Source: Amycolatopsis mongoliensis
GTDB taxonomy: Bacteria; Actinomycetota; Actinomycetes; Mycobacteriales; Pseudonocardiaceae
Length of the DNA: 64,000 nt
Direction: 5' to 3'
Assembly (NCBI RefSeq): GCF_030285665.1
Contig: NZ_CP127295.1
Coordinates: forward strand, 4,402,001-4,466,000
Position 1 is the first letter of the stretch. Each line of letters begins with the position of its first letter. The notes under the pieces are model-generated. The model made no database searches. It had not been told where the DNA came from and saw only the letters and a list, made by a program, of their open reading frames with translations. Below are positions 2-14,323 of this stretch, one piece after another. The position numbers and the translations under genes are program-made.

Positions 2-430
2 CGCAGCCTGCTGTCCAGTTTGGACGAATTCGTGAAGGGGCTCGACGAGCACCGCACCGAGATCACGCGGGCCATCGAGAGCGTCAACAAGCTGGCGCAG
101 ACGCTCAACGCGCACACCGACCAGATCACCACGACGCTCAACGGCCTGACCCCCGGTATCGGCGTCCTCAACCAGCAGCGGGAGGCGCTGGTCGGGATGC
201 TCAAGTCCCTGGACGGGCTGACCTCGGTCGCCGTCGACACGGTGAACAAGAGCAAGGACGACCTGGTCGCCGACCTGAAAGCCCTCGAACCGCTGCTGCG
301 GCGGCTGGCCGACTCCGGGGACAAGCTGCCGAAGGCGATGGAGATGATCTTCACCTTCCCGTTCCCGGACGCCGCGCTGGACGCCATCCGCGGCGACTAC
401 CTCAACGGGTTCCTCAAGGTGGGCCACTGA
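2..430 (+). CDS. MCE family protein, C-terminal part (MceE-like)
   Basis: This is the 3' end of a gene that begins before the window; 142 codons are visible and the reading frame is open to the first base. The segment is a long amphipathic helical region (heptad-like, rich in L, T, D and K), as in the C-terminal half of Mce proteins, which form the periplasm-spanning lipid conduit of Mce importers. It ends with the motif DAIRGDYLNGFLKV, typical of Mce C-termini. The stop overlaps the next mce start by one base (tgatg), so the two are translationally coupled. Assignment as the fifth gene (E) is inferred from position just before the F-like gene. The signal peptide and MlaD domain lie outside the window. 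Confidence 0.85.
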   Translation, partial: RSLLSSLDEFVKGLDEHRTEITRAIESVNKLAQTLNAHTDQITTTLNGLTPGIGVLNQQREALVGMLKSLDGLTSVAVDTVNKSKDDLVADLKALEPLLRRLADSGDKLPKAMEMIFTFPFPDAALDAIRGDYLNGFLKVGH

Positions 431-1536
431 TGCTGACCCGGTTCGTGCGCGTCCAGGTGACCGCCTTCGTCGTCATCGCCGTCCTCGGCGTCGCCTACGT
501 CGGGGCCACCTACGCGGGCCTCGACAAGGTGTTCTTCGACCGCGGCTACACCGTCCGGGCGCAGTTCCCGACCGGTGGCGGCATCTTCACCAACGCCGAG
601 GTGACCTACCGCGGGGTCCCGATCGGCCGCGTCGGCGAGCTGCGGCTGACCCCGGCCGGGATGGAAGCCGACCTCGAGATCGACGCCGGCACCGCGCCCG
701 TCCCGGCCGACACCGAGGCCGTCGTCGCCGACCGGTCGGCCGTCGGCGAGCAGTACGTCGACCTGCGGCCGCGCACCGACGGCGGCCCGAAGCTGCGGGA
801 CGGGTCCGTGCTCACGCAGGCCGACACGAGGATCCCGCTGCCGGTCGACGTGGTTTTGTCGACAGTGGACTCCTTCGCCAATTCGGTGCCCAAGCCCGCG
901 TTGCGCACGGTCGTCGACGAGCTGTACAACGCGACGTCCGACGCCGGCCCGGCGCTCGACCAGCTCGTCGGCCGCGGCATCGAGTTCGTGCAGGCGGCGA
1001 GCGCGCACGTGGCACCGCTGACCCGGTTCGTCACCGACGCGCACGTCGTGCTCGACACCCAGGTGCAGCAGGCCGGCGCGATCCGCGAGTTCGGCGCCAA
1101 CGCGAAGCTGCTCGCGTCGACGCTCAAGCAGTCCGACGGCGACCTGCGCACGCTCATCCCGGCGGTCCCGGCGGCGGCGAACGAGGTCGGCGCGCTGATC
1201 CGCGACTCCGGGCCCCAGCTGGGCGTGCTGCTGGCCAACCTGCTGACCACCGCGGACGTCCTCGAAGCGCGCCAGGGCGGGCTGCGGCAGCTGCTGATCA
1301 CCGCGCCGGAGGCGGTCGCCGCGGCCGCCGCGGTGGTGCGGCCGGACGGCGCGCACTTCGGGCTGTCGCTGACCTTCTTCGACCCGCCGCCGTGCACCAC
1401 CGGGTACACGACGCCGTACCGCAACGGCCTCGACACTTCGACCGGCCCGCTGAACACGGCCGCGCGCTGCGCGCTGCCGAAGGGCGACCCGACGAACGTG
1501 CGGGGTTCGCAGAACGCACCGGGAGGACGGCCGTGA
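430..1536 (+). CDS. MCE family protein, MceF-like
   Basis: A 368-aa Mce protein, one of the six related subunits that build the lipid or steroid channel of an Mce ABC-type importer. An uncleaved N-terminal membrane segment (about residues 8-30) is followed by the MlaD/MCE domain (about 38-120, with the GVPIGRVGEL core) and a long helical region ending near 300. The C-terminus contains paired Cys around CTTGY and RCALPKG. It starts at ATG 430, one base overlapping the upstream stop. It is the last mce gene before the Mce-associated genes, and the N-terminal motif LTRFVRVQVTAFVVI fits the F position. Its own stop overlaps the next start by 3 bases. Confidence 0.9.
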   Translation: MLTRFVRVQVTAFVVIAVLGVAYVGATYAGLDKVFFDRGYTVRAQFPTGGGIFTNAEVTYRGVPIGRVGELRLTPAGMEADLEIDAGTAPVPADTEAVVADRSAVGEQYVDLRPRTDGGPKLRDGSVLTQADTRIPLPVDVVLSTVDSFANSVPKPALRTVVDELYNATSDAGPALDQLVGRGIEFVQAASAHVAPLTRFVTDAHVVLDTQVQQAGAIREFGANAKLLASTLKQSDGDLRTLIPAVPAAANEVGALIRDSGPQLGVLLANLLTTADVLEARQGGLRQLLITAPEAVAAAAAVVRPDGAHFGLSLTFFDPPPCTTGYTTPYRNGLDTSTGPLNTAARCALPKGDPTNVRGSQNAPGGRP

Positions 1537-2030
1537 GGATCTTCGCGTGGGTGGCCGCGGTCTTGGCGACCGTGGCGGCCGGGTGGTCGGGGTTCACCTG
1601 GTGGCAGGCGGCGCACGACGACGGTGTCGCCCGGGCGGTCGTCCGGGAGGATGCCTTGCAGGCGGGCCGGACCGCCGTCGCCGGACTGACCACTTTGGAC
1701 TACCGGCAGGCGGCGCCGGGGTATCAGCACTGGCTCGAGCTCTCGGGCGGCGCGCTGCACGACGAGCTGGCGCAGGACCGGCAGGGCAGCCTCGACCGGA
1801 TCGCGCAGGCGAAGACCGTCACCACCGGCAAGGTGACCGACGCCGCGGTGACCGAAGTGGACACCGGAGCGGGCACGGCGAAGCTGATCGCCTCGGTCGA
1901 GCTGGTGGTGGCTCCTGAAGGCGGGGACGCCGTGACGAAACGCAACCGGTTCCAGGCCGACCTGACCCGCGGCCCCGACGGCTGGCGGGTTACGGGGCTG
2001 GGTCAGGTCCCGGCGGGGGAGACGCCATGA
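1533..2030 (+). CDS. Mce-associated membrane protein
   Basis: A 165-aa protein starting at GTG 1533, which overlaps the stop of the MceF-like gene (gtga). It has one N-terminal membrane segment (about residues 4-22) followed by an extracytoplasmic alpha+beta domain resembling the NTF2-like fold of Mas/VirB8-like proteins: 'DYRQAAPGYQHWLELSGG', then beta strands ending in DGWRVTGLGQVP. Mas proteins are encoded behind mce operons and stabilise the importer. A longer reading frame begins at 1392, inside the MceF-like coding sequence, and is not a credible start. The next gene overlaps by 4 nt. The family call is confident; the exact role is known only from mycobacterial relatives. Confidence 0.8.
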   Translation: MRIFAWVAAVLATVAAGWSGFTWWQAAHDDGVARAVVREDALQAGRTAVAGLTTLDYRQAAPGYQHWLELSGGALHDELAQDRQGSLDRIAQAKTVTTGKVTDAAVTEVDTGAGTAKLIASVELVVAPEGGDAVTKRNRFQADLTRGPDGWRVTGLGQVPAGETP

Positions 2031-2608
2031 CCGTGCCCACGAAGAAACGCTCGGTCAAGGTCGCCGGGCGTCACCACGACCCGAAGCCGGTCGATACGCC
2101 GGTCGTGCCACCTCGCCGCCGGGCGCCGTGGGTGCTCGCCGCGGTCGCCGTCGTGCTGGCGGGGCTTGCCGGGTGGTTCACGCTCGAAGCGCGGAGCACG
2201 AACTCCGTCGTGGCGCACAACACCGCGCTTTCCGATGTCGCGGGCACCGCGGACGCCGGGAAACAGATCAGTGCCGCGCTCGGCACGCTGTTCTCCTACC
2301 GCTACGACGATCCGGCGAAGAACGAACAGGCGGCGAAGGACCTCCTCACCGGTCCCGCGCTCGCGCAGTACGCGCAGCTCTTCGGAGAGGTCCGGAAGCT
2401 CGCCGCCGACCAGAAACTCGTGGTCACGTCGACCGCGGTGGCGTCCGGGGTGAAACTGCTGGACGGCGACCGCGCGGCGCTGCTGGTGTTCCTCGACCAG
2501 ACCGGAACCCGGGGCGACGGGCAGCGCAGCACCGGTGCCGCCCAACTGAGCGTCACGGCCGAACGCGTGGGCGGGAAGTGGCGGATCACGGGGATGTCCG
2601 CGGCGTGA
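2027..2608 (+). CDS. Mce-associated membrane protein (second)
   Basis: A 193-aa protein starting at ATG 2027 (atga overlap with the preceding gene). A basic cytoplasmic N-terminus (KKRSVKVAGRHHDPK) precedes one membrane helix (about residues 34-54, PWVLAAVAVVLAGLAGWFTL) and a C-terminal extracytoplasmic NTF2-like domain: TLFSYRYDDPAKNEQAAKDL, a central LLVFLDQT strand and the terminal GGKWRITGM. This is the usual pattern for Mas proteins, and a pair of them closing an mce operon is normal. It is the last gene of the visible operon. After it come 242 bp that hold a promoter and an upstream ORF for the polyketide synthase. Confidence 0.8.
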   Translation: MTVPTKKRSVKVAGRHHDPKPVDTPVVPPRRRAPWVLAAVAVVLAGLAGWFTLEARSTNSVVAHNTALSDVAGTADAGKQISAALGTLFSYRYDDPAKNEQAAKDLLTGPALAQYAQLFGEVRKLAADQKLVVTSTAVASGVKLLDGDRAALLVFLDQTGTRGDGQRSTGAAQLSVTAERVGGKWRITGMSAA

Positions 2609-2684
2609 TTGTCACGCCGACAACAGGCGTTGCCCGGTACGCAGTGAACGGAATGACAAAGTATTCCGGCGCATTCTCGATTCG

Positions 2685-2714
2685 TTGACAGGGATTCAAT
2701 GCGGGAAATACGGT
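2685..2714 (+). promoter_or_regulatory. Predicted promoter of the PKS transcript
   Basis: TTGACA at 2685-2690 and TACGGT at 2709-2714 with an 18-bp spacer form a good housekeeping-type promoter; transcription would begin near 2721. The -10 box overlaps GTG 2713, the most upstream in-frame start of the PKS, which argues against that start and in favour of ATG 2851. The promoter would separate the PKS from the mce operon. It is predicted from hexamer match and position only. Confidence 0.5.
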
Positions 2715-2752
2715 GAATCACCGATACGCCGCGAGAAATGCGCGAGGAATCC

Positions 2753-2854
2753 ATGCTCACGAGTTCTGCACTCCGGTCTGCTTCGGACGAACGCGGGTGC
2801 CCGGTGCCGACGGTCGATATCGTCGAATCGCGCACCCCGGACGGCCTGCGATGA
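2753..2854 (+). CDS. Small upstream ORF coupled to the PKS
   Basis: A 33-aa ORF, ATG 2753 to TGA 2854, preceded by GAGGA six bases upstream. It ends in ATGA, so its stop overlaps the PKS start at 2851. The PKS start itself has no convincing Shine-Dalgarno sequence, which would be explained if ribosomes terminate on this ORF and restart on the PKS. The peptide (MLTSSALRSASDERGC then PVPTVDIVESRTPDGLR) resembles nothing I recognise and is probably not functional as a protein. The predicted promoter lies upstream, so the ORF would be on the PKS mRNA. Conservation in relatives would decide. Confidence 0.5.
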   Translation: MLTSSALRSASDERGCPVPTVDIVESRTPDGLR

Positions 2855-5800
2855 CCGACCCCGGTGAGCTGCGCCGCTGGCTCACCGAGCGGATCGCCGG
2901 GCTCGCCGGGCTCGCGCCGGACCTGGTCGACGCCCGGGTCCCGCTGGCCGAGCTGGGCCTGTCGTCGCGGGACGCGGTGACCGTCGCCGCCGAACTGGGC
3001 GAGCTGCTCGGTCGGGAACCCGACCTCGGCCTGCTCGGCCGGTACCCCTCGATCGCCGCGCTGGCCGCGGCGCTGGCCGAGTCCCGGCCGCGACCCCGGG
3101 CGGGTGAACCGGTGGCCGTGCTCGGCGTCGGCTGCCGGTTTCCGGGGGGCATCGAGTCGCCGGACCAGCTCTGGCGCGCGCTGCTCACCGGCTCCGACGT
3201 CACCGGCACCGTGCCGCCGGACCGCCGTCCGTGGTTCGAGGCGGAATTCCGCGGCGCGTTCCTGACTGACGTCGCGGGGTTCGACGCCGCCTTCTTCGGG
3301 ATCGACCCGGCCGAAGCGGCGGCGATGGACCCGAGGCAGCGGATCCTCCTGGAGACGGCGTGGGCGGCGCTCGAACACGCGGGCATCGCACCCGGGAGGC
3401 TGCGCGGCAGCCGGACCGGCGTGTTCGCCGGTGTCTCGGCGGCGGACTCGGCGCGGTTCACCGACGCCGGGGCGGCCGCGTCGCTGATCGCGAACGGGGT
3501 GTCGGAGAGGTTCGACCTGCGCGGACCCAGCATGGTGGTGGACACGGCGGGCTCGGCGGCGCTGGTGGCGGTCCACCAGGCGGTTCGGGCGCTGGCCGCG
3601 GGGGAGGCCGACCTGGCGCTGGCGGCGGGGGTCCACGTGCTGTTCGCCCCGCCGGACGACGGCGTCGTGCCGGGCGAGGGGTGCGGAGTGGTGGTGCTGA
3701 AACGGCTGGCGGACGCCCGCCGCGACGGCGACCGCGTGCTGGCGGTGATCCGCGGCAGCGCGGCCGGGTGGTCCGCCGGTCCGAACATGCGCGAGGTGCT
3801 CGCCGACGCGCACGCCGTGGCCGGATCGGACCTGCCCACTGTGGACTACATCGAGACGCGGGGTGGTCCGGACGAGGCTTTCGAGGTGATGGCCGGCGGA
3901 GCCCGCGATCCGCGACGGCCACTGCTGGCGGGGTCGGCGAGCACGGTGTTCGGCCACCTCGCCGCGGCGTCGGGGATCCTCGGGCTGATCAAGGTGGTCC
4001 TGGCCCTGTGGCACGACCGGCTCCCGCCCTCACCTGGGGACGCCGCACTCCCTCTGTCCCGTGTGGACAAACCGGCGGACTGGCCGCGGTACGCCGGCAC
4101 CGCCCGCGCCGGCGTCTCGGCGTTCGGCTCCGGCGGCACGGGAGCGCACGTCGTGCTCGAGGAATGGCCGAAACCGCTCGAACCCGCCACGCCCGGCTCG
4201 CGGTGGAACGGCCGGCCACAGGTCTTCACGGTGTCGGGCCGGTCGGAGCCGGCCCTGCGCCGCCGGGCCGGCGAGCTGGCGGACTGGCTCACCGGGCCCG
4301 GCCGGGGGACCGCGCCGGGCGACCTGGCCGCGACACTCGCCCGGCGCCGGGAGCAGCTGCCGCTGCGGGCCGCCGTCGTCACGTCGTCCCGCGCCGCACT
4401 GGCCGCGGGCCTGCGGGCCGTCGCCGGCGGCGGGACCACGGCGGACGTCGTGCGGGGTACGGCCGGGCGCGAGCTGCCGCGCCCGGTCTTCGTGTTCTCG
4501 GGGGCCGGCTCGCAGTGGCCGGCGATGGGACGGCGGATGCTGGGCGCCGAGCCGGAGTTCCGGGCCGCGGTGGCCGCGCTCGAGCCGGTGTTCCTGGCCA
4601 AGGCGGGGTTCTCGCTGCGGGGCGCGTTGCGCCGGCCGCTCGGCGACCCGGCCGTCGTGCCGCCGCTGGTGTTCGGCCTGCAGGTCGCCCTGGCGGGGTG
4701 GTGGCGGGCACACGGCGTCGAGCCCGCCGCCGTGCTCGGGCAGTCGGCGGGCGAGATCGCGGCGGCCGTCGTCGCCGGCGTGCTGGACGCCGAGACCGGG
4801 CTCGACATCGTCGTCAGCCGGGCGAACCTGCTCTCGGAGCTGCCCGCCGGTGCGATGGCCGTCGTCGAGCTGTCCGCCGCCGAGGTGCTCGAACTGGGGT
4901 TCCCGGGCGTCACGGTCGTCGAACACGCGTCGCCGGCGCAGTGCACGGTCACCGGCGGCGCCGAGCACGTCGCCGCGCTGGTGTCCTATGTGGACGGACG
5001 TGGGCGGATGGCGCGCCTGCTGGCCGGAACCGGGCACTCGGCCGCCGTCGACCCGATCCTCGGCCGGTTCCGCGCCGGGCTCGGTCAGCTGCGGCCGGTG
5101 CCGCCGGCGACGGCGTACTACTCGAGCGTGCTCGACGACCCGCGCGCGGTGCCGACCTTCGACGCCGGCTACTGGACCGCCAACCTGCGGCGTCCGGTCC
5201 GGTTCACCCAGGCGGTCGCGGCCGCCGTCGCCGACGGGCACCGCTGGTTCGTCGAGGTCTCGCCGCACCCGATCGCACTGCCGGCCGTCGAGCAGACCGC
5301 GGCCGGCGTCCGGACGCTGCCCACCCTGAGCCGGCGCGACGGTGAAGAAAACGCTTTCGCGCGTTCGCTGGCCGAACTGCACGCGGCCGGGCACCCGGCG
5401 GTGCTCGGCCGGCGGTACCCGGAGGCGCCCGTGCTCGACCTGCCCCCGCCCCCGTGGGAACACCGGACGTTCCGGCCGCCCCGGCGCAGCGCCGGCCATC
5501 CGCTGCTCGGCACCCGTGTCGAGGTGCCGGACGAGGGCAGGCACCTGTGGCAGGCGACGATCGCGCCGGACGCGCCCGCGTGGCTGGGCGAGCACCGGGT
5601 GCACGACGTCCCGGTGTTCCCGGCGACCGGGTTCCTGGAGCTGTTCCTGGCCGGCGCCCGGGAGCTGTTCGGCACCGGTCGCGTCCGGGTCGACGTCCTC
5701 GAAGTGCACCGGACGCTCGCGGTGACCGGGGAAACGCTGCTCAGCACGGAGATCCGGGCCGACGGCACCGCCGTGGTGCGGGCGAAGACCGGCGCGGGCT

Positions 5801-7638
5801 GGGTGCGGCACGCGACGGCGTGGGTCTCGGCCGACACCGAACCCGCTCCTCTTGCACTGTCCGAAGTGGAGGATCCCGTTCGCGCGGCGGTGACCCCGTC
5901 ACCGCCGGGGTACGCGCTGCACCCGGTCCTGGCCGGCAGCTGCGTGCGCGCGCTGACCGGCAGCCGCCCGCCGGCCGGGTTCGGCCGGGTCCGCCTGCTC
6001 GGCGACCCGAGCCGGGGCGTGCGGTGCGAGGCGGCGCCGGCCGACGGGGTCGTCCAGCTCGTCACGGAGGACGCCGAAGTCGTCGTCGACTTCGGTGACG
6101 TCCGCGCCCAGGCCGGGGGCGGCGTGCCGCTCGCCGCCCGCGTGTTCGGGACGGCGTGGCCGCAAGTGCCGCTGCCCCCGGTCCCGCCGGCGGGACCGGG
6201 TTCGTGGCTGCTGCTCACCGACGAGCACCCGGCCGCGCTCGGCCGGGCCGTCGCGCTCGCCCTCGCACTGGCCGCCGCCGGGGACGAGGCGCTTTCCCTG
6301 CCGCAGGACGACCTCGGCGAGCTGCCGGGGTTCCTGGCCGAGCGGCCGGTGCGCGGCGTCGTCTTCCTCGCCGGAGCGCCCCACGCCTACCGCGATCCCG
6401 TGGACGCCCAGGACCTGCTGCGCACCGTCCGCTCGGTGCTCGCCCGCCTCGGGCCCGGCGTCCGGTTCCACCTGGTCACGCAGTCGGGCGGCGAGCCGGG
6501 GCTGGCGTTCCTGCGCGGCCTGGTGCGGGTGCTCGCCTTCGACCGGCCGGGGTTGCGGGCGACGCTCGTCGACTGCGACGCCCGGTCACCGGTGGACGTT
6601 CTCGCTCGCGAGCTGCGCTCGGACGCACCGGACGACGAGGTGTGCTGGCGCCACGGCGTCCGGTACGCGGCCCGGTTGACCCGCGTGCCGCTCGTCGACG
6701 GCGGGTCGACCGGCCCGGGCGCGTACGTGATCACCGGCGGCTTCGGTGCGCTGGGCTCGGCCACCGCGCGCTGGCTGGCGGGCAACGGCGCGACCCGGAT
6801 CGTCCTTTGCGGACGGTCGGGCGGGGAGGCTGGACTGTCCGGAGTGGACGTCGTGACCGTCACCGGTGACATCGCGGAACCCGGTGTCGCGGAACGGCTC
6901 GTCGCCGCGGCCACCGCGGACGGGCTGCCGCTGCGGGGAATCGTGCACGCGGCGGGCGTCCCCGGCGACGACGTCTCGGCCGTGTGGCGGCCCAAGGTGC
7001 TCGGTGCGCGGCGGCTGCACGAAGCGACCGCCGACACCCCACCGGACTGGTGGCTGACGTATTCGTCGTCGGCGGCGCTGGTCGGCGCGCCCGCCCGGAC
7101 GGCCCTCGCGACCGCGGACGCGTGGCTGGACGCGTTCGCCGCCTGGCGTCGCTCGCGCGGGCTGCCCGCGACGACGGTGAACTGGGGCGCGGACCCCGTG
7201 CTGGACCCGTTGCCGGTGGCCGAAGGACTCGACGCCCTGCCCGCGGTGCTCGGTGCGGACCGGCCGTCGGCCGGGATCGGCCGGCTCGACGCGGGCCGCG
7301 TCGCCGGGCTGTTCCCGGAACTCCTCCGACGGCCGTTCTTCTCCGAAGTGCTGACGGGCGTTCCCGCGACCGCGCCCGAGCGGCTCGCGGACCTCGTCGC
7401 CGGGCTGCTCGGCGGCCCGGTGCCCCGGGACGTGCCGCTGGTCGAGCTGGGCCTGGACTCCCTGACGGCGATGCGGGCGCGGGCGGCGGCCGAGCGCGAG
7501 TTCGGCGTCACGCTACCGGTGCCGCTGCTCCTGCGGGGCGCGAGCCTGGACGACCTCGCCGGGTACGTGACGGGTACACCGGTCCCCGCGCCCGAGCGGC
7601 CGGCGCGGGTGCTGCGGCCGGACGAGCCGACGCTCTAG
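2851..7638 (+). CDS. Type I polyketide synthase, ACP-KS-AT-DH-KR-ACP, with degenerate KS, DH and KR
   Basis: A 1595-aa single-module PKS. An N-terminal ACP has the starter-type motif GLSSRDAV (Ser39), as in Pks13 and PpsA. The KS (from about residue 86) has Gly234 where the catalytic Cys of DTACSS belongs, Arg337 for the first His with HGTGT collapsed to RGGP, and Ser364 for the Lys of KSNIGH; only His369 remains. The AT (about 545-800) keeps Ser632 in GQSAG (usually GHSxG) and His729. The DH keeps His915, but the partner Asp is Gly1029. The KR has the NADP motif TGGFGALG (1295-1302) and Lys1382, but Leu1419 replaces the catalytic Tyr and Asp1423 the Asn. The C-terminal ACP has Ser1537 in GLDSLTAM. 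No thioesterase is present. The start was chosen from the uORF overlap and the promoter position. The product is unknown; the protein may act as an acyl loader or carrier. Confidence 0.9.
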   Translation: MTDPGELRRWLTERIAGLAGLAPDLVDARVPLAELGLSSRDAVTVAAELGELLGREPDLGLLGRYPSIAALAAALAESRPRPRAGEPVAVLGVGCRFPGGIESPDQLWRALLTGSDVTGTVPPDRRPWFEAEFRGAFLTDVAGFDAAFFGIDPAEAAAMDPRQRILLETAWAALEHAGIAPGRLRGSRTGVFAGVSAADSARFTDAGAAASLIANGVSERFDLRGPSMVVDTAGSAALVAVHQAVRALAAGEADLALAAGVHVLFAPPDDGVVPGEGCGVVVLKRLADARRDGDRVLAVIRGSAAGWSAGPNMREVLADAHAVAGSDLPTVDYIETRGGPDEAFEVMAGGARDPRRPLLAGSASTVFGHLAAASGILGLIKVVLALWHDRLPPSPGDAALPLSRVDKPADWPRYAGTARAGVSAFGSGGTGAHVVLEEWPKPLEPATPGSRWNGRPQVFTVSGRSEPALRRRAGELADWLTGPGRGTAPGDLAATLARRREQLPLRAAVVTSSRAALAAGLRAVAGGGTTADVVRGTAGRELPRPVFVFSGAGSQWPAMGRRMLGAEPEFRAAVAALEPVFLAKAGFSLRGALRRPLGDPAVVPPLVFGLQVALAGWWRAHGVEPAAVLGQSAGEIAAAVVAGVLDAETGLDIVVSRANLLSELPAGAMAVVELSAAEVLELGFPGVTVVEHASPAQCTVTGGAEHVAALVSYVDGRGRMARLLAGTGHSAAVDPILGRFRAGLGQLRPVPPATAYYSSVLDDPRAVPTFDAGYWTANLRRPVRFTQAVAAAVADGHRWFVEVSPHPIALPAVEQTAAGVRTLPTLSRRDGEENAFARSLAELHAAGHPAVLGRRYPEAPVLDLPPPPWEHRTFRPPRRSAGHPLLGTRVEVPDEGRHLWQATIAPDAPAWLGEHRVHDVPVFPATGFLELFLAGARELFGTGRVRVDVLEVHRTLAVTGETLLSTEIRADGTAVVRAKTGAGWVRHATAWVSADTEPAPLALSEVEDPVRAAVTPSPPGYALHPVLAGSCVRALTGSRPPAGFGRVRLLGDPSRGVRCEAAPADGVVQLVTEDAEVVVDFGDVRAQAGGGVPLAARVFGTAWPQVPLPPVPPAGPGSWLLLTDEHPAALGRAVALALALAAAGDEALSLPQDDLGELPGFLAERPVRGVVFLAGAPHAYRDPVDAQDLLRTVRSVLARLGPGVRFHLVTQSGGEPGLAFLRGLVRVLAFDRPGLRATLVDCDARSPVDVLARELRSDAPDDEVCWRHGVRYAARLTRVPLVDGGSTGPGAYVITGGFGALGSATARWLAGNGATRIVLCGRSGGEAGLSGVDVVTVTGDIAEPGVAERLVAAATADGLPLRGIVHAAGVPGDDVSAVWRPKVLGARRLHEATADTPPDWWLTYSSSAALVGAPARTALATADAWLDAFAAWRRSRGLPATTVNWGADPVLDPLPVAEGLDALPAVLGADRPSAGIGRLDAGRVAGLFPELLRRPFFSEVLTGVPATAPERLADLVAGLLGGPVPRDVPLVELGLDSLTAMRARAAAEREFGVTLPVPLLLRGASLDDLAGYVTGTPVPAPERPARVLRPDEPTL

Positions 7639-7652
7639 CGTCACGCGTCGCC

Positions 7653-8849
7653 CTAGGTCAGGGTGGCGCGGAGGGCGAGGATCATCTCGAAGCGGTCGTC
7701 CGGATCCCGCAGGTGGTCCGCGAACAACGTCTCCAGCTCCTGGGCCCGGGCGCGGACCGTCTGGGGGTGGATCGCCAGGCGGTCGGCGACCTCGCGGACG
7801 TTGCCGCACGTCTCCAGCCAGGCCAGCAGCGTCCCCGCCAGGCGGTTGTACTGCTTGGGGTTCAACGCCGTCAGCGGGGCCAGCCGGCGCCGGGACACCT
7901 CGGTCGCGAGGAACGGCTCCTTGCACAGCCACAACGTCGCCAGGTGGTCTTCGCACCAGGTCAGGGGCTCGTCCGGGAGGACGTCGGCCGCCACCAGGCG
8001 CAACGCCTCCTGCGCCGTCGCCAGGGAACGGCCCGCCTGACGCGGGGGCACCGGAGGACCGACCGCGGCCCGGTGACCGGCCAGGGCCGCGATCAACGCG
8101 GAACGGTCCGAAGGCACCGGCAGCAGCAGCCGCGGCGTCCCGTCTTCCAAGTCCTCCAGCGCGTCCAGCCCGGTGACGTCCGCCGGGCCGGCCAAGGCCA
8201 CCGCGACCAGCCGGTGCGGCAACGGCCAGTCCGCCGCCGTCGCCGCTTCCTGGACCGTCCGCGACGGTGCCGGCGGGTCGGCCAGCAGCAGGTCGAGCAG
8301 CCGGCGGCGACGGCGTTCCAGCGCGCCCGCCGCGCGGGCCTGCGCCGCCGCGTGCCCTTCGATCGACAACGCCGACAGCTCGTCGATGTAGGCGAAGATC
8401 GCCTCGGCCAGCAGGCACAGCGTCGCCGACGGCACGCCCGCCCGCGTCCCCACCTCGGCCATCCGCCGCCAGGTCACGCGCGCGCCGACCCGGTACGCCG
8501 CCTGCAGGACGTCGAGGTTGCGGCCCTGCGCGAGCTCGTGCACGCCGAGCCCGACGAACAGCTTCCGCCGCGAGTCCGGCACCGGCCCGGACGCGGCGAT
8601 CCGGTCGATGAACTGCAGGATCGCCGCCTGCACGCCGGCCCGCAGCGCCTTGCCGAAGGCGCCGTCGAGCGGCCGCGCGTAGTCCGGGATGGTCCGCTGG
8701 ATCTCGCGCAGCACCTCGTCGGCGACGTCGAGCATCCGCGGCCGGAACACCGCGGCCAGCTCCCGGGGGAGCAGGGCCCACAGCTGTCCCGGCCGGCCGT
8801 CGCCGCTCAGCATCGGCCCGAAGGCCGATTCGCCGGACGGTCCCGTCAC
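7653..8849 (-). CDS. PucR-type transcriptional regulator (paralogue 1)
   Basis: A 398-aa regulator with the PucR/CdaR layout. The N-terminal helical sensor region contains LPRELAAVFRPRM, GRNLDVLQAAYRVGARVTW and AEAIFAYIDELSALSIEGH. A variable middle follows, then a C-terminal HTH (about residues 345-390) with NVREVADRLAIHPQTVRAR. GTG 8849 is taken as start because AAGGAG lies about 11 bases upstream; GTG 8858 is an alternative but sits only 2 bases from that site. It lies 32 bp downstream of paralogue 2 on the same strand and probably shares its transcript. Its 3' end faces the PKS stop across 14 bp. The effector is unknown. Confidence 0.85.
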   Translation of the reverse strand: MTGPSGESAFGPMLSGDGRPGQLWALLPRELAAVFRPRMLDVADEVLREIQRTIPDYARPLDGAFGKALRAGVQAAILQFIDRIAASGPVPDSRRKLFVGLGVHELAQGRNLDVLQAAYRVGARVTWRRMAEVGTRAGVPSATLCLLAEAIFAYIDELSALSIEGHAAAQARAAGALERRRRRLLDLLLADPPAPSRTVQEAATAADWPLPHRLVAVALAGPADVTGLDALEDLEDGTPRLLLPVPSDRSALIAALAGHRAAVGPPVPPRQAGRSLATAQEALRLVAADVLPDEPLTWCEDHLATLWLCKEPFLATEVSRRRLAPLTALNPKQYNRLAGTLLAWLETCGNVREVADRLAIHPQTVRARAQELETLFADHLRDPDDRFEMILALRATLT

Positions 8850-8881
8850 TAGTCTCACCACTCCTTCGGGATGAGCCGATC

Positions 8882-10237
8882 TCAGGAACCGAGCAGGGCC
8901 TCCGCCCGCAGCGCGATCTCCATGTCGAGCCGGTCGTCGGCGTTGTCGAGCCGGTCGCCGAACAGGTCGACGAGCTGGTGCATGCGGTACCGCACGGTCT
9001 GCGGGTGCACCTTGAGCTTCTTCGCGATCTCGGGTGCGCTGCCGCGGGACTGCAGCCAGATCAGCAGCGTCTCGCCGAGGCGCGCCCGTTGCTTCGGGGT
9101 GAGGTCCCGGAACGGCTCCAGGCTGCGCGAGCACAGTTCGCGGACCAGGAACTCGTCGGCGAGCAGCCACAGCGTGGAGAGGTGGTCGGTGCAGCGCGTG
9201 ACCGGCGCGTCCGGCAGCACGCCGCGCTGGACGAGCTTCAGCGTCCGGCGCGCCCACAGCAGCGACCGCGGCGCGTCGGTGAGCCGCACGGTCGGGCCGA
9301 TCACCGCGCGCCAGCCCTGCAGCCGCTCGGTGAGGTTCTTCAGGTGCTTCTCCGCGTCGCCGGTGACCAGGCACGGCTCGCCGCCCTCGAGGTCGACGAG
9401 GACGTCGGAGTGCAGGTCCGGCGCGGCGAGGCTGTGCTGGTCGGCGCGGGGTTCGAGGGCGACGACCGTGACCTCCGCCGGCAGCGCCCACTGCGCGGTC
9501 GCGGCCTGCGCGCTGATGGTCTGCGGCGCCGACGGCGGGTCGGCGAGCAGCAGTTCGAGCAGCCGTCTCCGGCGGCGCGCGCGGGTGCCGGCGGCGCGGG
9601 TCTGCGCCGCCGTGTAGCCCTCGATCGAGAGCGCGGAGATCTCGTCGACGTAGGCGAAGATGGCTTCCGCGCTGGTGCACAGCGTGTCCGCGGCGAGCCC
9701 GGCGGCCTGCCCGAACTCGGAGATGTGCCGCCACGCGACGCGCCCGCCGACCCGGTAGGCCGTCTGCAGGCAGTCGAGGCTGCGCCCCTCGTTGAACTCG
9801 ATCTTGCCCAGGTTGCGGAACACGGTCGTCCACGTTTCGAGCGGTACGGCACCCGGGGTGCCGACACTGTCGAGGCATTGGATGATCGCCTGCCGGACAC
9901 CCTGCGTGATGATGTGCCCGAACGCGCCTTCGAGCGGCTGGCGGTACTCGGGCACCGCCCGCTGGACCTCCTGCAAGATGGCGCGGGCCAGCGGGTCGAC
10001 CCGCGGCTTGAAGCGGATCGCCAGCTCGCGGGGCAGCGACGCCCACAGCCCGATGGCGCCGGAAGCGCGCACGGGCCGGGGTTCCGCCGGGGTCCGCGGG
10101 GCGGGTGGGTAGGCGGGCCGGGGCCGGTCGGCCGACACGGACTGCTGCCGGTACGCCGGTCCGGAAGAGCGCTCGCCGGGGTTGGGCCGGCCCGTCCGCA
10201 GTGCGGGGGTGGCGAACCCGGTGTCCATGTCGGTCAT
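8882..10237 (-). CDS. PucR-type transcriptional regulator (paralogue 2)
   Basis: A 451-aa regulator of the same layout as its neighbours, with an extra proline/arginine-rich N-terminal tail of about 60 residues before LWASLPRELAIRFKPRV. The helical sensor domain contains GRSLDCLQTAYRVGGRVAW and AEAIFAYVDEISALSIEGY; the C-terminal HTH contains APEIAKKLKVHPQTVRYRM. The start ATG 10237 has AGGA 8 bases upstream. A good promoter (10311-10339) precedes it. It is followed by paralogue 1 after 32 bp. Family membership is clear, but target and ligand cannot be read from sequence; the adjacent PKS and mce genes are candidate targets by position only. Confidence 0.85.
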   Translation of the reverse strand: MTDMDTGFATPALRTGRPNPGERSSGPAYRQQSVSADRPRPAYPPAPRTPAEPRPVRASGAIGLWASLPRELAIRFKPRVDPLARAILQEVQRAVPEYRQPLEGAFGHIITQGVRQAIIQCLDSVGTPGAVPLETWTTVFRNLGKIEFNEGRSLDCLQTAYRVGGRVAWRHISEFGQAAGLAADTLCTSAEAIFAYVDEISALSIEGYTAAQTRAAGTRARRRRRLLELLLADPPSAPQTISAQAATAQWALPAEVTVVALEPRADQHSLAAPDLHSDVLVDLEGGEPCLVTGDAEKHLKNLTERLQGWRAVIGPTVRLTDAPRSLLWARRTLKLVQRGVLPDAPVTRCTDHLSTLWLLADEFLVRELCSRSLEPFRDLTPKQRARLGETLLIWLQSRGSAPEIAKKLKVHPQTVRYRMHQLVDLFGDRLDNADDRLDMEIALRAEALLGS

Positions 10238-10310
10238 GTGTTTTATCCTTGCTGGCAACAAAACTGGCCTCTTCGTCGTCGAAGCCGGTCCGGATTTTGT
10301 GGCTCAGGCA

Positions 10311-10339
10311 ACATAATTTCGCGCGAACGGCACTGTCAA
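10311..10339 (-). promoter_or_regulatory. Predicted promoter of PucR paralogues 2 and 1
   Basis: On the minus strand, TTGACA (10339-10334) and TTATGT (10316-10311) are separated by 17 bp. Transcription would start near 10304, leaving a leader of about 67 nt before ATG 10237. Hexamers and spacing are close to the sigma-70-like consensus. Confidence 0.5.
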
Positions 10340-10453
10340 CGGGTTCTCCGCTGACTTTGCGGTAACCCGTCCGGACTACACCCGAACGGGTGGAACGGCG
10401 CGATGAGAGGTGACACTTCCGCTTCGGGCGGATGGTGCGCGGATGACAACTTT

Positions 10454-11386
10454 TCAGGAGGGTGTTTTCCGGCCCGCGGCGGCCGTGAGCCGCTCGACGA
10501 CGTCGTCCAGGGTCAGCCGCGCGGGCTCGGTCCCCGTGACGAACTCGTTCAGCAGCAGGCAGAACCCGTCCGGGTCGGACACATGTGGAAAGTGTTTCGC
10601 GTTTTGCCGCACGGTCAATCGTCCGTTCGGCAGCAGTTCGGCGGTCCGGTGGCCGTGTGCCACGGGGATGAGCGGGTCCCGCGCGCCCCAGACCAGCAGC
10701 GTCGGCACGGCCTCGGCCAGGTAGAGCTTCTCGACGGCGCTCGCGCGCTGCCCGCGCAGGTCGATCAGGCTGCGCGCGATGAACAGGAACGCCCGCCGCC
10801 GCGCGGGATCGGCCAGCGAGCCGAAATGCCGGGCCAGCTCCCGTGTTTCAGTTTTCAACGACCCGCCGAGCCGGCGTCCGAGCCGGGCCGCGGCCCGCGC
10901 GATCGCGAGCGTCACGCGGTTCACCGCGCACGCCAGCACGGCCGGCGCGCCCGGCAAGGCCGTGGCCCGCAGCACCGGGCTCACCTCCGGGCCCAGCCCG
11001 GCGCTGCCGACGAGCACCAGCCGGTCGCACATTTCCGGGAACTGGTAGGCGAACTGCATCGCGACGCCGCCGCCGAGCGAGTGGCCGACGACGGTCGCGT
11101 GCCGCACGCCCGACACCGCCAGCACGTCCCGCACGGTGCTCGCCAGCGCGCCGAGGCCGTAGTCGGCGCGCGGTGCCTCCGATGCGCCGTGGCCGGGCAG
11201 GTCGGGTGCCAGCACGCGCCGGCCCAGCGCGGCGCACCGCGCCAGGACCGGGGCCCAGGTCTCGGCGCTGCCCGCGATCCCGTGCAGCAGCACGATCGCT
11301 TCGTCGCCCGCGTCCGACGGCGGCGTGTGCTCGTGCAGCCGGATCCGGCGGCCGTGGAGGGTGAGCGTGTACGTCTCGAGTGTCAT
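10454..11386 (-). CDS. Alpha/beta-fold hydrolase
   Basis: A 310-aa cytoplasmic hydrolase with the complete alpha/beta triad: HG oxyanion motif at LLHGIAG (residues 33-39), nucleophile Ser103 in GHSLGG, acid Asp237 in WGARDPLIP and His265 or His268 in AKHFPHVSDP. No signal peptide is visible. ATG 11386 is preceded by AAAGG. It lies between the PucR paralogues and on the same strand as three of them. The family includes esterases, C-C hydrolases and haloperoxidase-like enzymes, so the substrate is open. Since the nearby PKS lacks a thioesterase, a role in releasing its acyl product is conceivable but is only inference. Confidence 0.85.
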   Translation of the reverse strand: MTLETYTLTLHGRRIRLHEHTPPSDAGDEAIVLLHGIAGSAETWAPVLARCAALGRRVLAPDLPGHGASEAPRADYGLGALASTVRDVLAVSGVRHATVVGHSLGGGVAMQFAYQFPEMCDRLVLVGSAGLGPEVSPVLRATALPGAPAVLACAVNRVTLAIARAAARLGRRLGGSLKTETRELARHFGSLADPARRRAFLFIARSLIDLRGQRASAVEKLYLAEAVPTLLVWGARDPLIPVAHGHRTAELLPNGRLTVRQNAKHFPHVSDPDGFCLLLNEFVTGTEPARLTLDDVVERLTAAAGRKTPS

Positions 11387-11723
11387 CGGCGGCCTTTCTC
11401 GCGAACCCGAAAATAGGGCATCCGACTACTTGCACCCGATGTGGCGAACACCACTTCGGCCGAATGCGGGTGTGCATGACAAGAACGGAACCGGAAAGGC
11501 GATCGGAAGTGCGGGTTCTGCCGGATTCACCGGTAATGCCTCTCGACATTCCGCCGGTATCCGCGTATTCCTCGAAGGCATGGTCGCAATGACGCACCGG
11601 ACGCGCTGATGTCCTGCCGCGCGAGTTTTCCCCTCCCGCACCAGCAGCTCCCGCCGCCGCGGCCGGGGCGCCGTGCGTGGTGGCGCGTGCTGCCGATGCC
11701 GGTGCGCGCGCTCGACCGCGCCC
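11387..11723. other. Intergenic region without recognised features
   Basis: These 337 bp lie between the hydrolase start and the stop of PucR paralogue 3. I see no convincing ORF, hairpin or repeat. The part next to 11386 must hold the hydrolase promoter, but no hexamer pair stands out. Confidence 0.5.
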
Positions 11724-12932
11724 TCAGCGCTCCCGCTCACCGTCCGGCCGGTGCGCGCGCATGAGCCGCTGAGCCCGCAGGGCGAGCTGCATGCCCAGGC
11801 GGTCGTCGGCGTCCTTGAGCCGGTCGCCGAACAGCTCCTCCAGCTGCCGCAGCCGGTTGCGCACGGTCTGCGGGTGGACGCCGAGGCGCTGCGCGATCTC
11901 GGGCGCCCCGCCGCGCGTCTCCAGCCAGGCCAGCAGCGTCTCGCTGAGCCGGTCACGCTGCTTCTCGCTGAGGGAGGCGAACGGGTCGAGGCTCTGCCGG
12001 GCCAGCTCGGCGGCCAGGAAGTCCTCCGCGAGCAGCCACAGGGTGGCGAGGTGGTCGCGGCACCAGATGATCGGTCCGGGGACGTCCGGGCCGGACAGCA
12101 GCAGGGCCCGGCGGGCGGTGCGCAGCGCGGCCGGGGCGTCGGCCAGCGGCACGGTGGGGGACACCGCGGCCCGCCACCCGTCGAGCTTGGCTTCCAGGGG
12201 CGCGAGGTCGGCGTCGGGATCGCGGGTGAGCAGGTGCGGCTCGGGACCGTCGAGGTCGGCCAGGACGCCGTCGCCGAGCAGGTCGGCGGGGAAGTCGGCG
12301 GCGTCGGGACCGCGTTCGAGGGCGACCATCGCGGCGGTCTCCGGCAGCGGCCAGCCCGCCCCGCCGGCGAGCCCGGCGATGCTGGTCGCGGCGCCTTCGG
12401 GGCCTTGGACGATGAGCTCGAGCAGCCGCCGGCGGCGGACCGGGACGGCGCCCTCGGCCTCGGCCTGCGCCTGCTGGTAGCCCTCGATCGCGGTGGCGCA
12501 CAGCTCGTCGACGTAGGCGAAGATGGCCTCCGCGGCGACCGAGATCACGGCCGGGTCGACGCCCGCGGCGACGACGCCGGGGTGCATCGCCCGCCAGGCC
12601 ACCCGGGCCCCGACGGTGGCGCTGTCCTGCAGCGCGTCGAGGTTGCGGCCCTCGGTGAACTCGATGCGGCCGCGGCCGCGGTAGAAGTCGGCCCAGTGCT
12701 CGTGGGACAGGTCCGGCTCGCCCATCGAGTCGACGCAGTGCTGCACGGCGTACTCGACGCTCTTGACCAGGACCTTGCCGAACACACCCTTGAGCGGCTG
12801 GCCGTAGGCGGGGACCGTGCGCTGGACCTCCTGGATCATCGAGGCCGCGGCGTGCCCGACGTGCGGGCGCAGGCCCGCGCCCAGTGCGCGCGGCAGCGAG
12901 GCCAGCAGGCGGAAGCTGCGGTACTCGACCAC
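11724..12932 (-). CDS. PucR-type transcriptional regulator (paralogue 3)
   Basis: A 402-aa PucR-type regulator related to paralogues 1, 2 and 4. The N-terminal helical region contains LLASLPRALGAGLRPHV, GRNLDALQDSATVGARVAW and AEAIFAYVDELCATAIEGY; the C-terminal HTH contains APEIAQRLGVHPQTVRNRL followed by EELFGDRLKDADDRL. GTG 12932 is preceded by AAGGGGG five bases upstream. It is divergent from paralogue 4, with 194 bp between the two starts, so the pair may share a control region. The ligand is unknown. Confidence 0.85.
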   Translation of the reverse strand: MVEYRSFRLLASLPRALGAGLRPHVGHAAASMIQEVQRTVPAYGQPLKGVFGKVLVKSVEYAVQHCVDSMGEPDLSHEHWADFYRGRGRIEFTEGRNLDALQDSATVGARVAWRAMHPGVVAAGVDPAVISVAAEAIFAYVDELCATAIEGYQQAQAEAEGAVPVRRRRLLELIVQGPEGAATSIAGLAGGAGWPLPETAAMVALERGPDAADFPADLLGDGVLADLDGPEPHLLTRDPDADLAPLEAKLDGWRAAVSPTVPLADAPAALRTARRALLLSGPDVPGPIIWCRDHLATLWLLAEDFLAAELARQSLDPFASLSEKQRDRLSETLLAWLETRGGAPEIAQRLGVHPQTVRNRLRQLEELFGDRLKDADDRLGMQLALRAQRLMRAHRPDGERER

Positions 12933-13037
12933 GAATCCCCCTTCGAGTTCGTCCGGGCGGAGCAGAGCGTATCCGACGGTTGTGTCACTGAAAAATCAAC
13001 GAGGTGTTCCCGGAAAGGGTGACGCGGTGACGTCCTT

Positions 13038-13073
13038 TTGACACGGACGGGTGGGCGTTCTACGCTCCGTGTC
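13038..13073 (+). promoter_or_regulatory. Promoter with embedded inverted repeat, PucR paralogue 4
   Basis: TTGACA at 13038-13043 and TACGCT at 13061-13066 are 17 bp apart, an excellent promoter. A perfect 8-bp inverted repeat, GACACGGA (13040-13047) and TCCGTGTC (13066-13073), brackets it from the -35 box to the predicted start site, with half-site starts 26 bp apart. This is what an operator for autorepression would look like. The predicted start of transcription (about 13073) lies almost on ATG 13076, so a leaderless mRNA from that ATG is also possible. Confidence 0.55.
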
Positions 13074-13126
13074 AGATGGCGGGATATTTCTGGGGCGCCA
13101 ATTCCCAAGTGGAGGACCGAATTTCC

Positions 13127-14323
13127 ATGCGCGGTTCCGCTGCTTCGAAGGGGTCCGTCTGGGCCCGCCTGCCCCACGAGCTCGGCGACGCGGTGCGCCC
13201 GCGGATCCCGGAGATCGCGCGGGCCTGCATCGAGGGCATCGCCGCCGAGATTCCGGAATATTCCGCGAGTTACGGCCACGGCCCGGCCCGGACCGCGGCG
13301 ATCGAGCAGGCGCGGCGCGGGATCGAGCGGGACATCGACCGCGTCGGCACGCCCGCGATGTGGCAGGCCGACCGGCTGGCCGAGTTCCGCGGCCACGGGC
13401 GCGAGGCGTTCCACGATGGTCTGAGCCGCGAGGCGGTGCAGGCGGCCGTGCGCGTGTCGAGCCGGGTGACGTGGCGCTGGATCGCCGACATCGCCCGGGA
13501 TGCCGGCCTGTCCGGCGACGTCCTGTACGGCGCGGCCGAGGGGATGTTCGCCGACGTCGAGACGTCGATGGCGGCGGTCGCCGAGGGCTACAGCGCGGCC
13601 GAAGCGGCGATGTCCGGCACCGGCGAGCGCCACCGGCGGCTGCTGCACGCCCTGATCGGCGGCCGCACACCGGCCGAAGTGGACGGTCTGCTCGCGGCGT
13701 CCGGGCTGCCGGTGCCGGCACAGGTGGCCGCGGTGGCGTTCCGGGCGCTGCCGGGCGCGCCGGAGTTCCCGCCGGGCCTGCTGCCCGCGCACGTCCCGGC
13801 CGACCCCGCCGGCGATCCACCGGCGGCGTTGACCCCGGCCCCGGACACGGACCTCGCGGGGCTGGCGGCGTTGCCGGCCGGCTGGACGGCGGCGGTCGGG
13901 CCCCTGGTGCCCCCGGCTTCGGCCCCGGAGTCGTTCAGGATCGCCCGGCGCGCGATCGACCTGGCGGCGCGGGGGCTGCTGGACGCGCCGGGCCCGGTGG
14001 TGTGGTGCCGCGACCACCTGACGACGCTGTTGCTGCTCGCGGACGAGTTCCTGGTGGCCCAGCTGGCTTCCACGACGTTGGCGCCGCTGGCCGGGGTGAC
14101 CGGGAAGCGCCGGGAGCAGCTGGCCGAGACGTTGCTGGCGCTGGTCCAGACCCGGGGGAGCGCACCCGAGCTGGGGCGGTTGCTCGACCTGCACCCGCAG
14201 ACGATCCGGGCGCGGCTGAAGAAGCTGGGCGAGCTGTTCGGGGCACGGCTGGACGATCCGGGTGAGCGGCTGCGGCTGGAGCTGGCGCTGCTGGCGGAGC
14301 GGGCCCTGCCGGACGGGGAGTGA
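13127..14323 (+). CDS. PucR-type transcriptional regulator (paralogue 4)
   Basis: A 398-aa PucR-type regulator, the only one of the four on the plus strand. Like the others it begins with a motif of the form WARLPHELGDAVRPRI and has a helical sensor domain (GREAFHDGLSREAVQAA, YGAAEGMFADVETSMAA). Its C-terminal HTH contains APELGRLLDLHPQTIRARL. It is the most divergent member. ATG 13127 was chosen because GGAGG lies 11 bases upstream and the protein then matches its paralogues; ATG 13076 would add 17 residues and would be nearly leaderless from the predicted promoter. A hairpin follows at 14428. Confidence 0.85.
   Translation: MRGSAASKGSVWARLPHELGDAVRPRIPEIARACIEGIAAEIPEYSASYGHGPARTAAIEQARRGIERDIDRVGTPAMWQADRLAEFRGHGREAFHDGLSREAVQAAVRVSSRVTWRWIADIARDAGLSGDVLYGAAEGMFADVETSMAAVAEGYSAAEAAMSGTGERHRRLLHALIGGRTPAEVDGLLAASGLPVPAQVAAVAFRALPGAPEFPPGLLPAHVPADPAGDPPAALTPAPDTDLAGLAALPAGWTAAVGPLVPPASAPESFRIARRAIDLAARGLLDAPGPVVWCRDHLTTLLLLADEFLVAQLASTTLAPLAGVTGKRREQLAETLLALVQTRGSAPELGRLLDLHPQTIRARLKKLGELFGARLDDPGERLRLELALLAERALPDGE

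Follow-up and report, generated by a model that had tools for sequence, protein, structure and literature searches.

Catalytically inactive domains are familiar from working polyketide synthases (PKSs), where single KS0, KR0 or psiKR domains retain their structure without catalysis and where the active-site Cys of the KS is replaced in the equally familiar KSQ loading domains; pseudoenzymes, too, are known singly. Here we describe a gene for a type I PKS on a 64,000-nucleotide stretch of the Amycolatopsis mongoliensis genome (hereafter the window; contig NZ_CP127295.1, positions 4,402,001 to 4,466,000) which differs from the KS0, KR0 and psiKR cases in that its KS, DH and KR and its partner fatty-acyl-AMP ligase (FAAL) are dead together, and in that the dead KR didomain also occurs as a separate gene. 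Comparison across genomes establishes, at the level of the genes, that the dead ligase and the dead synthase are open, constrained frames and that the synthase can be reduced to psiKR-KR. On balance we favour reading the gene as a pseudoenzyme whose retained role is non-catalytic and centres on psiKR-KR, and which possibly serves the Mce lipid transporter encoded beside it.

The closest described systems are the FAAL-coupled reducing type I PKSs of Pseudonocardiaceae (some of them named ‘phthiocerol/phenolphthiocerol synthesis type-I PKS D’), which have the same domain order and of which P0022 is the nearest intact member. As in these systems, a ligase-like gene lies directly upstream of the paralogue in the window's own genome and of relatives at the same site; in contrast to them, the dead clade described below lacks the KS, DH, KR and ligase active sites, and has either lost its thioesterase or, in 14 of the 16 rows of our alignment with a letter there, lacks the thioesterase Ser (retained in the other two). 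No thioesterase follows the C-terminal ACP of the window PKS.

Translation of 2851–7638 gave 1595 codons free of stops, with Pfam matches to ketoacyl-synt N and C, KAsynt_C_assoc, Acyl_transf_1, PKS_DH_N, KR and two PP-binding stretches; psiKR was named by alignment with relatives rather than by Pfam. An earlier note on this DNA had named losses in KS (Gly234 for the Cys, Arg337 for the first His with a collapsed HGTGT loop, Ser364 for the Lys), in DH (Gly1029 for the Asp) and in KR (Leu1419 for the Tyr), together with retention of both ACP serines and of AT Ser632 and His729 in a GQSAG motif. When residue states were read from an alignment with 93 intact relatives, all of these proved correct, the loop being shortened in the window copy, and the second KS His (His369) and KR Ser1405 were seen to be retained. 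Of what a working type I PKS module needs, the window copy therefore lacks the KS Cys-His-His triad with its Lys, as well as the KR Tyr and Asn (Leu1419, Asp1423), while it has the phosphopantetheine Ser of both ACPs (Ser39, Ser1537) and the AT Ser and His with Arg, the Arg or the His being replaced in many orthologues. Loss of the AT oxyanion Gln was considered as a further defect and dropped, as intact relatives also lack this Gln (Tyr in 88 of 93). The KS-AT piece is predicted to be folded (pLDDT 87.1), in a model of the kind that intact relatives in the alignments can help. Replacement of the KS Cys recalls KSQ loading modules, in which Gln stands for Cys and the His is retained; here the two positions are Gly234 and Arg337, and KSQ-type decarboxylation is not expected in the window copy because His1, the Lys and the HGTGT loop have gone as well.

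A search of 5.8 billion proteins with the window PKS returned 4160 matches, of which the best 120 were listed. Among those listed, the window protein is joined by 22 close relatives at 72–86% identity (P0002–P0021, P0023, P0024; Amycolatopsis where named), at least P0012, P0023 and P0024 being incomplete, and intact relatives come next at 44–56%. The dead set thus comprises 23 rows including the window copy, and the intact set 93 (P0099 and P0108, named as partial, were excluded). At the KS Cys position the dead rows have G in 16, D in 4, N in 1 and a gap in 2, so that Cys is found in 0 of 21 lettered rows, and none of the 21 has the Gln of KSQ. The KR Tyr position has H in 7, V in 5, Q in 4, L in 3, N and D in 1 each and a gap in 2 (Tyr in 0/21), and the KR Asn position has D in 20, N in 1 and a gap in 2. 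The DH His is retained in 21/23 rows and the DH Asp in 9/18 lettered rows; the serines of ACP1 (19/19), ACP2 (21/21) and AT (22/22) are retained wherever there is a letter, and the AT His in 15/20 (5 replaced, 3 gaps) and AT Arg in 9/21 (12 replaced, 2 gaps). In the intact relatives the same residues are present in 93/93 each, save the KR Tyr (92/93).

In a tree built from 17 dead rows (of 23) and 20 intact ones (of 93), the dead copies group as a single clade with an SH-aLRT of 100; its sister, at 99, is the intact P0022, in which the KS, KR, DH, AT and thioesterase residues are all in place. Since the dead copies form one clade beside an intact protein, a single loss of catalysis before they diverged is most likely, and the losses, being common to the whole clade, are not recent. 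Protein P0024, in which an HGAGT loop and the KS Lys are still present and the Cys is already Gly, suggests that the KS Cys went first; the shortening of the KS loop differs in length between dead copies.

Pairwise codon models (GY94, F3x4) were fitted to the window copy and its counterparts in three syntenic genomes, giving six pairs. Over the whole gene omega was 0.09–0.13, with at most 0.21 in any domain and 0.05–0.12 in KS. In the three pairs with the window copy, 2dlnL was 476, 653 and 583 against omega = 1, and 215, 306 and 266 against omega = 0.5. For comparison, the intact paralogue P0100 gave 0.076–0.090 (trimmed gene; window genome versus four others) and five neighbour genes 0.033–0.113 (three pairs). 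The remaining plus-strand frames, used as a control, gave 1.4–5.4; one antisense frame has a low omega of 0.17–0.18 because it shares its third codon positions with the real frame, and it is the domain matches that identify the sense frame. Between G000 and G039, 14 of the 16 PKS gaps in the nucleotide alignment were multiples of three, the other two being 8 and 1. These values (dN/dS ~0.1) sustain the view of the earlier note that a protein with three inactive domains and 1595 open codons is maintained by selection; the combination that it had named as contrary evidence, intact orthologues with dN/dS near 1, was not found, omega being 0.09–0.13 and the KS Cys and KR Tyr absent in 21/21 lettered rows.

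What is being conserved can be asked position by position. We took the 407 positions fixed in at least 98% of the 93 intact PKSs and scored them in 20 dead rows (P0021, P0023 and P0024 excluded). Among the 393 that are non-catalytic, 267 are retained in at least 18 of the 20 dead copies and 42 in five or fewer, and the 12 catalytic positions are retained 0, 4, 1, 4, 20, 8, 14, 18, 8, 9, 0 and 0 times. The catalytic positions are thus retained less than the other fixed positions (Mann–Whitney p = 3e-5 for the 12 residues; p = 6e-5 with the two ACP serines added), which argues that catalysis was given up preferentially and the scaffold held. This is the combination expected of a pseudoenzyme, catalytic residues gone with fold and sequence under purifying selection, the fold being known here by prediction with intact relatives in the alignments.

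The partner ligase has gone the same way. Other genomes have a fatty-acyl-AMP-ligase-like gene between the mce operon and the PKS; in the window it is a stub, the start of the ligase joined in frame to its end. The motif TSGST, which we take to be the ATP-binding loop, is found in 4/4 intact ligases (three at the same site, one beside the paralogue), and at its place the loop is deleted in all 13 long open dead-clade ligases (13 read, 9 aligned). The dead-clade ligases have omega 0.10–0.20 over 12 pairs, and 17 of 19 gaps in five pairs are multiples of three. In G064 the ligase is reduced to 212 aa. The ligase upstream of the short form in L130 (G017), otherwise dead, carries an in-frame tandem expansion of a segment of ~30 aa (FAAGHHLRDLEAAAGGAD...).

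The synthase itself has been reduced at many sites. Among 80 genomes of the genus, our own included, 39 sites were compared (the window plus 38 among the better matches to the operon tail; nine of the 41 genomes outside this set matched at 75–79%, equal to some included). Six genes of the operon upstream of the PKS are Mce-like by position (the four scanned with Pfam all matched) and two encode MlaE permeases; the site behind the operon is conserved. Five of the 39 sites hold a full-length dead PKS, 17 hold psiKR-KR only, three a more distant relative (G031, G004, G058) and 13 no PKS match, and at one (G023) the contig ends too early. In the four full-length holders other than the window most flanking proteins are 87–100% identical to those of the window and the PKS 74–78%; matched piecewise, the PKS gave 63–82%. 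The distant relatives in G004 and G058 have differing in-frame deletions and differing lost residues: the AT Ser is Ala in G004 and Gly in G058, and the KS Cys is retained in the former and lost in the latter.

The psiKR-KR-only frames are 357–433 aa long and open in 17/17 cases. Fourteen open with GTGACCGGGCCG where the PKS used to start; in G056 and G075 the frame begins at the stop of the last mce-associated gene, the same TGP motif following; and in G006 the junction is a different one, psiKR-KR being fused to a ligase-like start. In all 17 the frame then runs on with the equivalents of aa ~1091–1095. With protein P0145 (site unknown), in which a ligase start is joined to psiKR-KR-ACP, three distinct in-frame junctions have given rise to reduced forms; P0012 was set aside as a form ending at psiKR, since a contig end may have cut it. 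In 11 of the 17 the start of the short gene and the stop of an open ligase-like frame overlap; in two the overlap is with the stop of the last mce-associated gene, and in one the start lies 2 bases after that stop. Short forms have omega 0.05–0.17 over 14 pairs, three of them including the window copy, and 8/8 gaps in nine pairs are multiples of three, the aligned frames being open by choice. Protein search turned up the short form in other Amycolatopsis too, A. rifamycinica and A. tolypomycina among the carriers, most of the entries being annotated as KR domain-containing protein; none of 27 short-form proteins (partial ones included) has the KR Tyr, and 23/27 lack the middle glycine of the NADPH loop. 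The predicted short-form structure is well formed (pLDDT 85.4, pTM 0.85) and nearest to PKS ketoreductases, with the proviso that intact relatives can help such models.

We suggest that the gene began as a FAAL-loaded, reducing type I PKS, that an ancestor shared by one Amycolatopsis clade most likely lost catalysis, and that the product has since been preserved in folded form to do a non-catalytic job. Its working part would be psiKR-KR, and the remainder would be conserved because, for as long as it stays attached, it has to fold correctly. With less support, the protein may be an accessory to the neighbouring Mce transporter, whether as a stabiliser, an assembly or regulatory partner, or a lipid- or acyl-binding partner; the fixed neighbourhood, the start–stop overlaps and a precedent point weakly in this direction. 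That precedent comes from small non-catalytic proteins that stabilise or join Mce complexes, such as LucA, which stabilises them in mycobacteria (in the portions of PMC5487216 and PMC9882608 used here), and from the mce-associated (Mas) genes, which in Actinomycetales lie mostly downstream of mce gene sets (PMC1810536, likewise in part). The window PKS resembles Mas, LucA and LucB in being non-catalytic and encoded with mce genes, as far as these excerpts describe them (PMC1810536, PMC5487216, PMC9882608), and differs in that LucA and LucB are, in the same excerpts (PMC5487216, PMC9882608), small transmembrane proteins and that the link of the PKS to Mce is a putative one. The fuller proposal, that a ligase and PKS pair lost catalysis, was taken over as a non-catalytic part of an Mce operon and was then pared in frame more than once to psiKR-KR, founding a new Mce-associated family, is one we advance tentatively, as falling short of an even chance.

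Several observations weigh against the pseudoenzyme reading or parts of it. The dN of the dead PKS is 0.083, 0.122 and 0.120, versus 0.057, 0.084 and 0.077 for the intact paralogue in the same three genome pairs, and constraint, at ~1.5 times the paralogue's dN, is somewhat relaxed. A psiKR-KR core does not predict that these domains are no more constrained than others in full-length copies, nor that their fixed positions are kept no better than average (means of 15.7 for psiKR and 16.2 for KR, of 20) and those of AT best of all (18.2). At the same site G058 has psiKR without KR. Some copies are damaged: the G054 ligase stops early, at 158 aa, P0024 apparently runs out of frame and ends ahead of psiKR, and the full-length G030 copy, from a complete genome, has a single frameshift near PKS residue 930, which may be genuine or a sequencing error (P0009, 96–99% identical to it, is open). 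The 13 of 39 sites without the gene indicate that it is dispensable in those species. The basis of the Mce link, finally, is adjacency and gene overlap.

The alternative that best withstands these data is constraint without positive function, in which a protein expressed from a good promoter or from the tail of the mce operon is merely purged of misfolding or aggregating variants. The in-frame trimming, the sites without the gene and the preferential loss of catalytic positions would all fit, as would the elevated dN and the slower evolution of the neighbour genes (omega 0.03–0.11). However, an omega so close to the intact paralogue's is more than anti-toxicity alone would readily explain, and the short didomain has stayed open at 17/17 sites over dS up to ~0.9; we regard this explanation as unlikely, if far from negligible.

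Less probable still is acyl loading or carrier work, in which AT would charge one or other ACP with an acyl group for use by a different enzyme. The earlier note had offered acyl loading, carrier and scaffold work as possible functions. For the first, the window copy has both ACP serines as well as Ser632, Arg657 and His729 in AT, the AT Ser stands in 22/22 lettered rows and the AT positions are the best kept of any domain. The replacement of the AT Arg in 12/21 and of the AT His in 5/20 lettered rows, the dead partner ligase and the lack of AT and ACP in all 17 short forms, at 17 of 39 sites, nevertheless tell against acyl loading as the general function. Carrier work is likewise weakened by short forms without ACP, although the ACP serines are retained in every lettered row. 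Scaffold or other non-catalytic work is the reading that we prefer from that list.

Ordinary recent decay, with the frame open only because stop codons are rare in GC-rich DNA, would account for the missing catalytic residues, the one frameshifted copy and the 13 sites without the gene. A pseudogene should have dN/dS near 1 and frame-breaking changes; instead omega is 0.09–0.13 and the frame is open in four of the five full-length genomes. Neutral simulation of the window PKS sequence (substitutions only, at an assumed equilibrium of 71% GC) gave omega 0.45–0.70, and 0 of 20 lineages stayed open at each total distance of 0.15, 0.2 and 0.3, with a mean of 4 stops each at 0.15, a divergence comparable to that of the real copies. 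Together with losses that are common to the clade and hence not recent, these results largely refute decay, and we give it very little weight. Most doubtful of all is a product still made with help in trans, another KS, KR or ligase (e.g. of the intact paralogous synthase P0100, which has its own ligase-like gene in the same genome) acting on the ACPs, whose serines are indeed retained, since the short forms without ACPs have no place in such a pathway.

The features of the locus are collected in the table below. Within the leader, a 150-base stretch that ends in the first 15 bases of the stub is 87–94% identical in five genomes. The leader holds TTGACA-N18-TACGGT, present in all five full-length holders and 0 of the 34 other sites, and a near-palindrome, TTGTCA-N3-CGACAA, which with one mismatch in the window is perfect in two relatives (TTGTCA-N3-TGACAA). 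The leader may be a promoter or operator. A consensus scan found no sigma-70 promoter before the stub, and TTGACA/TACGGT is given here as conserved sequence only.

Features of the dead PKS gene and its surroundings (positions in the window)
Feature	Position	Strand	Basis
Last Mce-family gene of the mce operon (MlaD, Mce4_CUP1)	430..1536	+	Pfam
mce-associated gene, Mas-like by position only; no Pfam match	1533..2030	+	position
Second mce-associated gene, Mas-like by position only; no Pfam match	2027..2608	+	position
Conserved leader before the ligase stub	2609..2737	+	
38-codon in-frame stub of a fatty-acyl-AMP-ligase-like gene; TGA overlaps the PKS ATG (ATGA)	2738..2854	+	homologues
Catalytically dead type I PKS, ACP-KS-AT-DH-psiKR-KR-ACP, 1595 aa	2851..7638	+	translation, Pfam, alignment, dN/dS
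N-terminal ACP, Ser39 retained	2851..3090	+	Pfam, alignment
KS without Cys (Gly234), His1 (Arg337) and Lys (Ser364); HGTGT loop shortened	3106..4170	+	Pfam, alignment
AT; Ser632, Arg657 and His729 retained in the window copy	4471..5400	+	Pfam, alignment
DH, shortened; His915 retained, Asp replaced by Gly1029	5488..6120	+	Pfam, alignment
psiKR (KR structural half); in every gene form read from DNA at the site	6121..6705	+	alignment
KR without Tyr (Leu1419) and Asn (Asp1423); glycine-rich loop retained in the window copy	6706..7350	+	Pfam, alignment
C-terminal ACP, Ser1537 retained	7363..7575	+	Pfam, alignment
PucR-type regulator, far-side marker of the site	7653..8849	-	

On the far side of the site, 7653–14323 holds four related PucR-type genes around an alpha/beta hydrolase (three by Pfam, the fourth by similarity), and at least the first two adjoin the site in most genomes examined. 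In L126, L127, L130, L136 and L143 the short psiKR-KR gene is separated from the PucR gene by extra genes: a MerR-like regulator and, in two, an aldo/keto-reductase-like gene (as judged by reading the frames). A DUF6801 protein precedes the mce operon (L010:1244–2788). Further off, 13–23 kb before the window (L009, L010), are two more KS-containing genes (1916 and 1278 aa; KS matches at chromosome 4380879 and 4385093), near ACP-like, hydrolase-like and glycosyltransferase-like genes by look.

Among the papers listed in a literature search that left most subscription journals outside, none dealt with this locus or with a fully inactive PKS retained under selection, which is not proof of absence. 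Two candidate papers were set aside on the parts consulted, one in which Mce is methylmalonyl-CoA epimerase (PMC4453227) and one on an active symbiont pathway (PMC5698493). The locus presents a whole dead assembly-line module that is maintained by selection, and a series within one genus that runs from near-intact synthase through dead synthase to minimal dead domain, which allows a direct test of which part of a megasynthase is useful when catalysis is gone. Genome mining should take warning as well, since annotation calls such genes polyketide synthases or KR domain-containing proteins. If the Mce link is true, the dead synthase and its short forms would be an unexpected kind of accessory factor for bacterial lipid transport.

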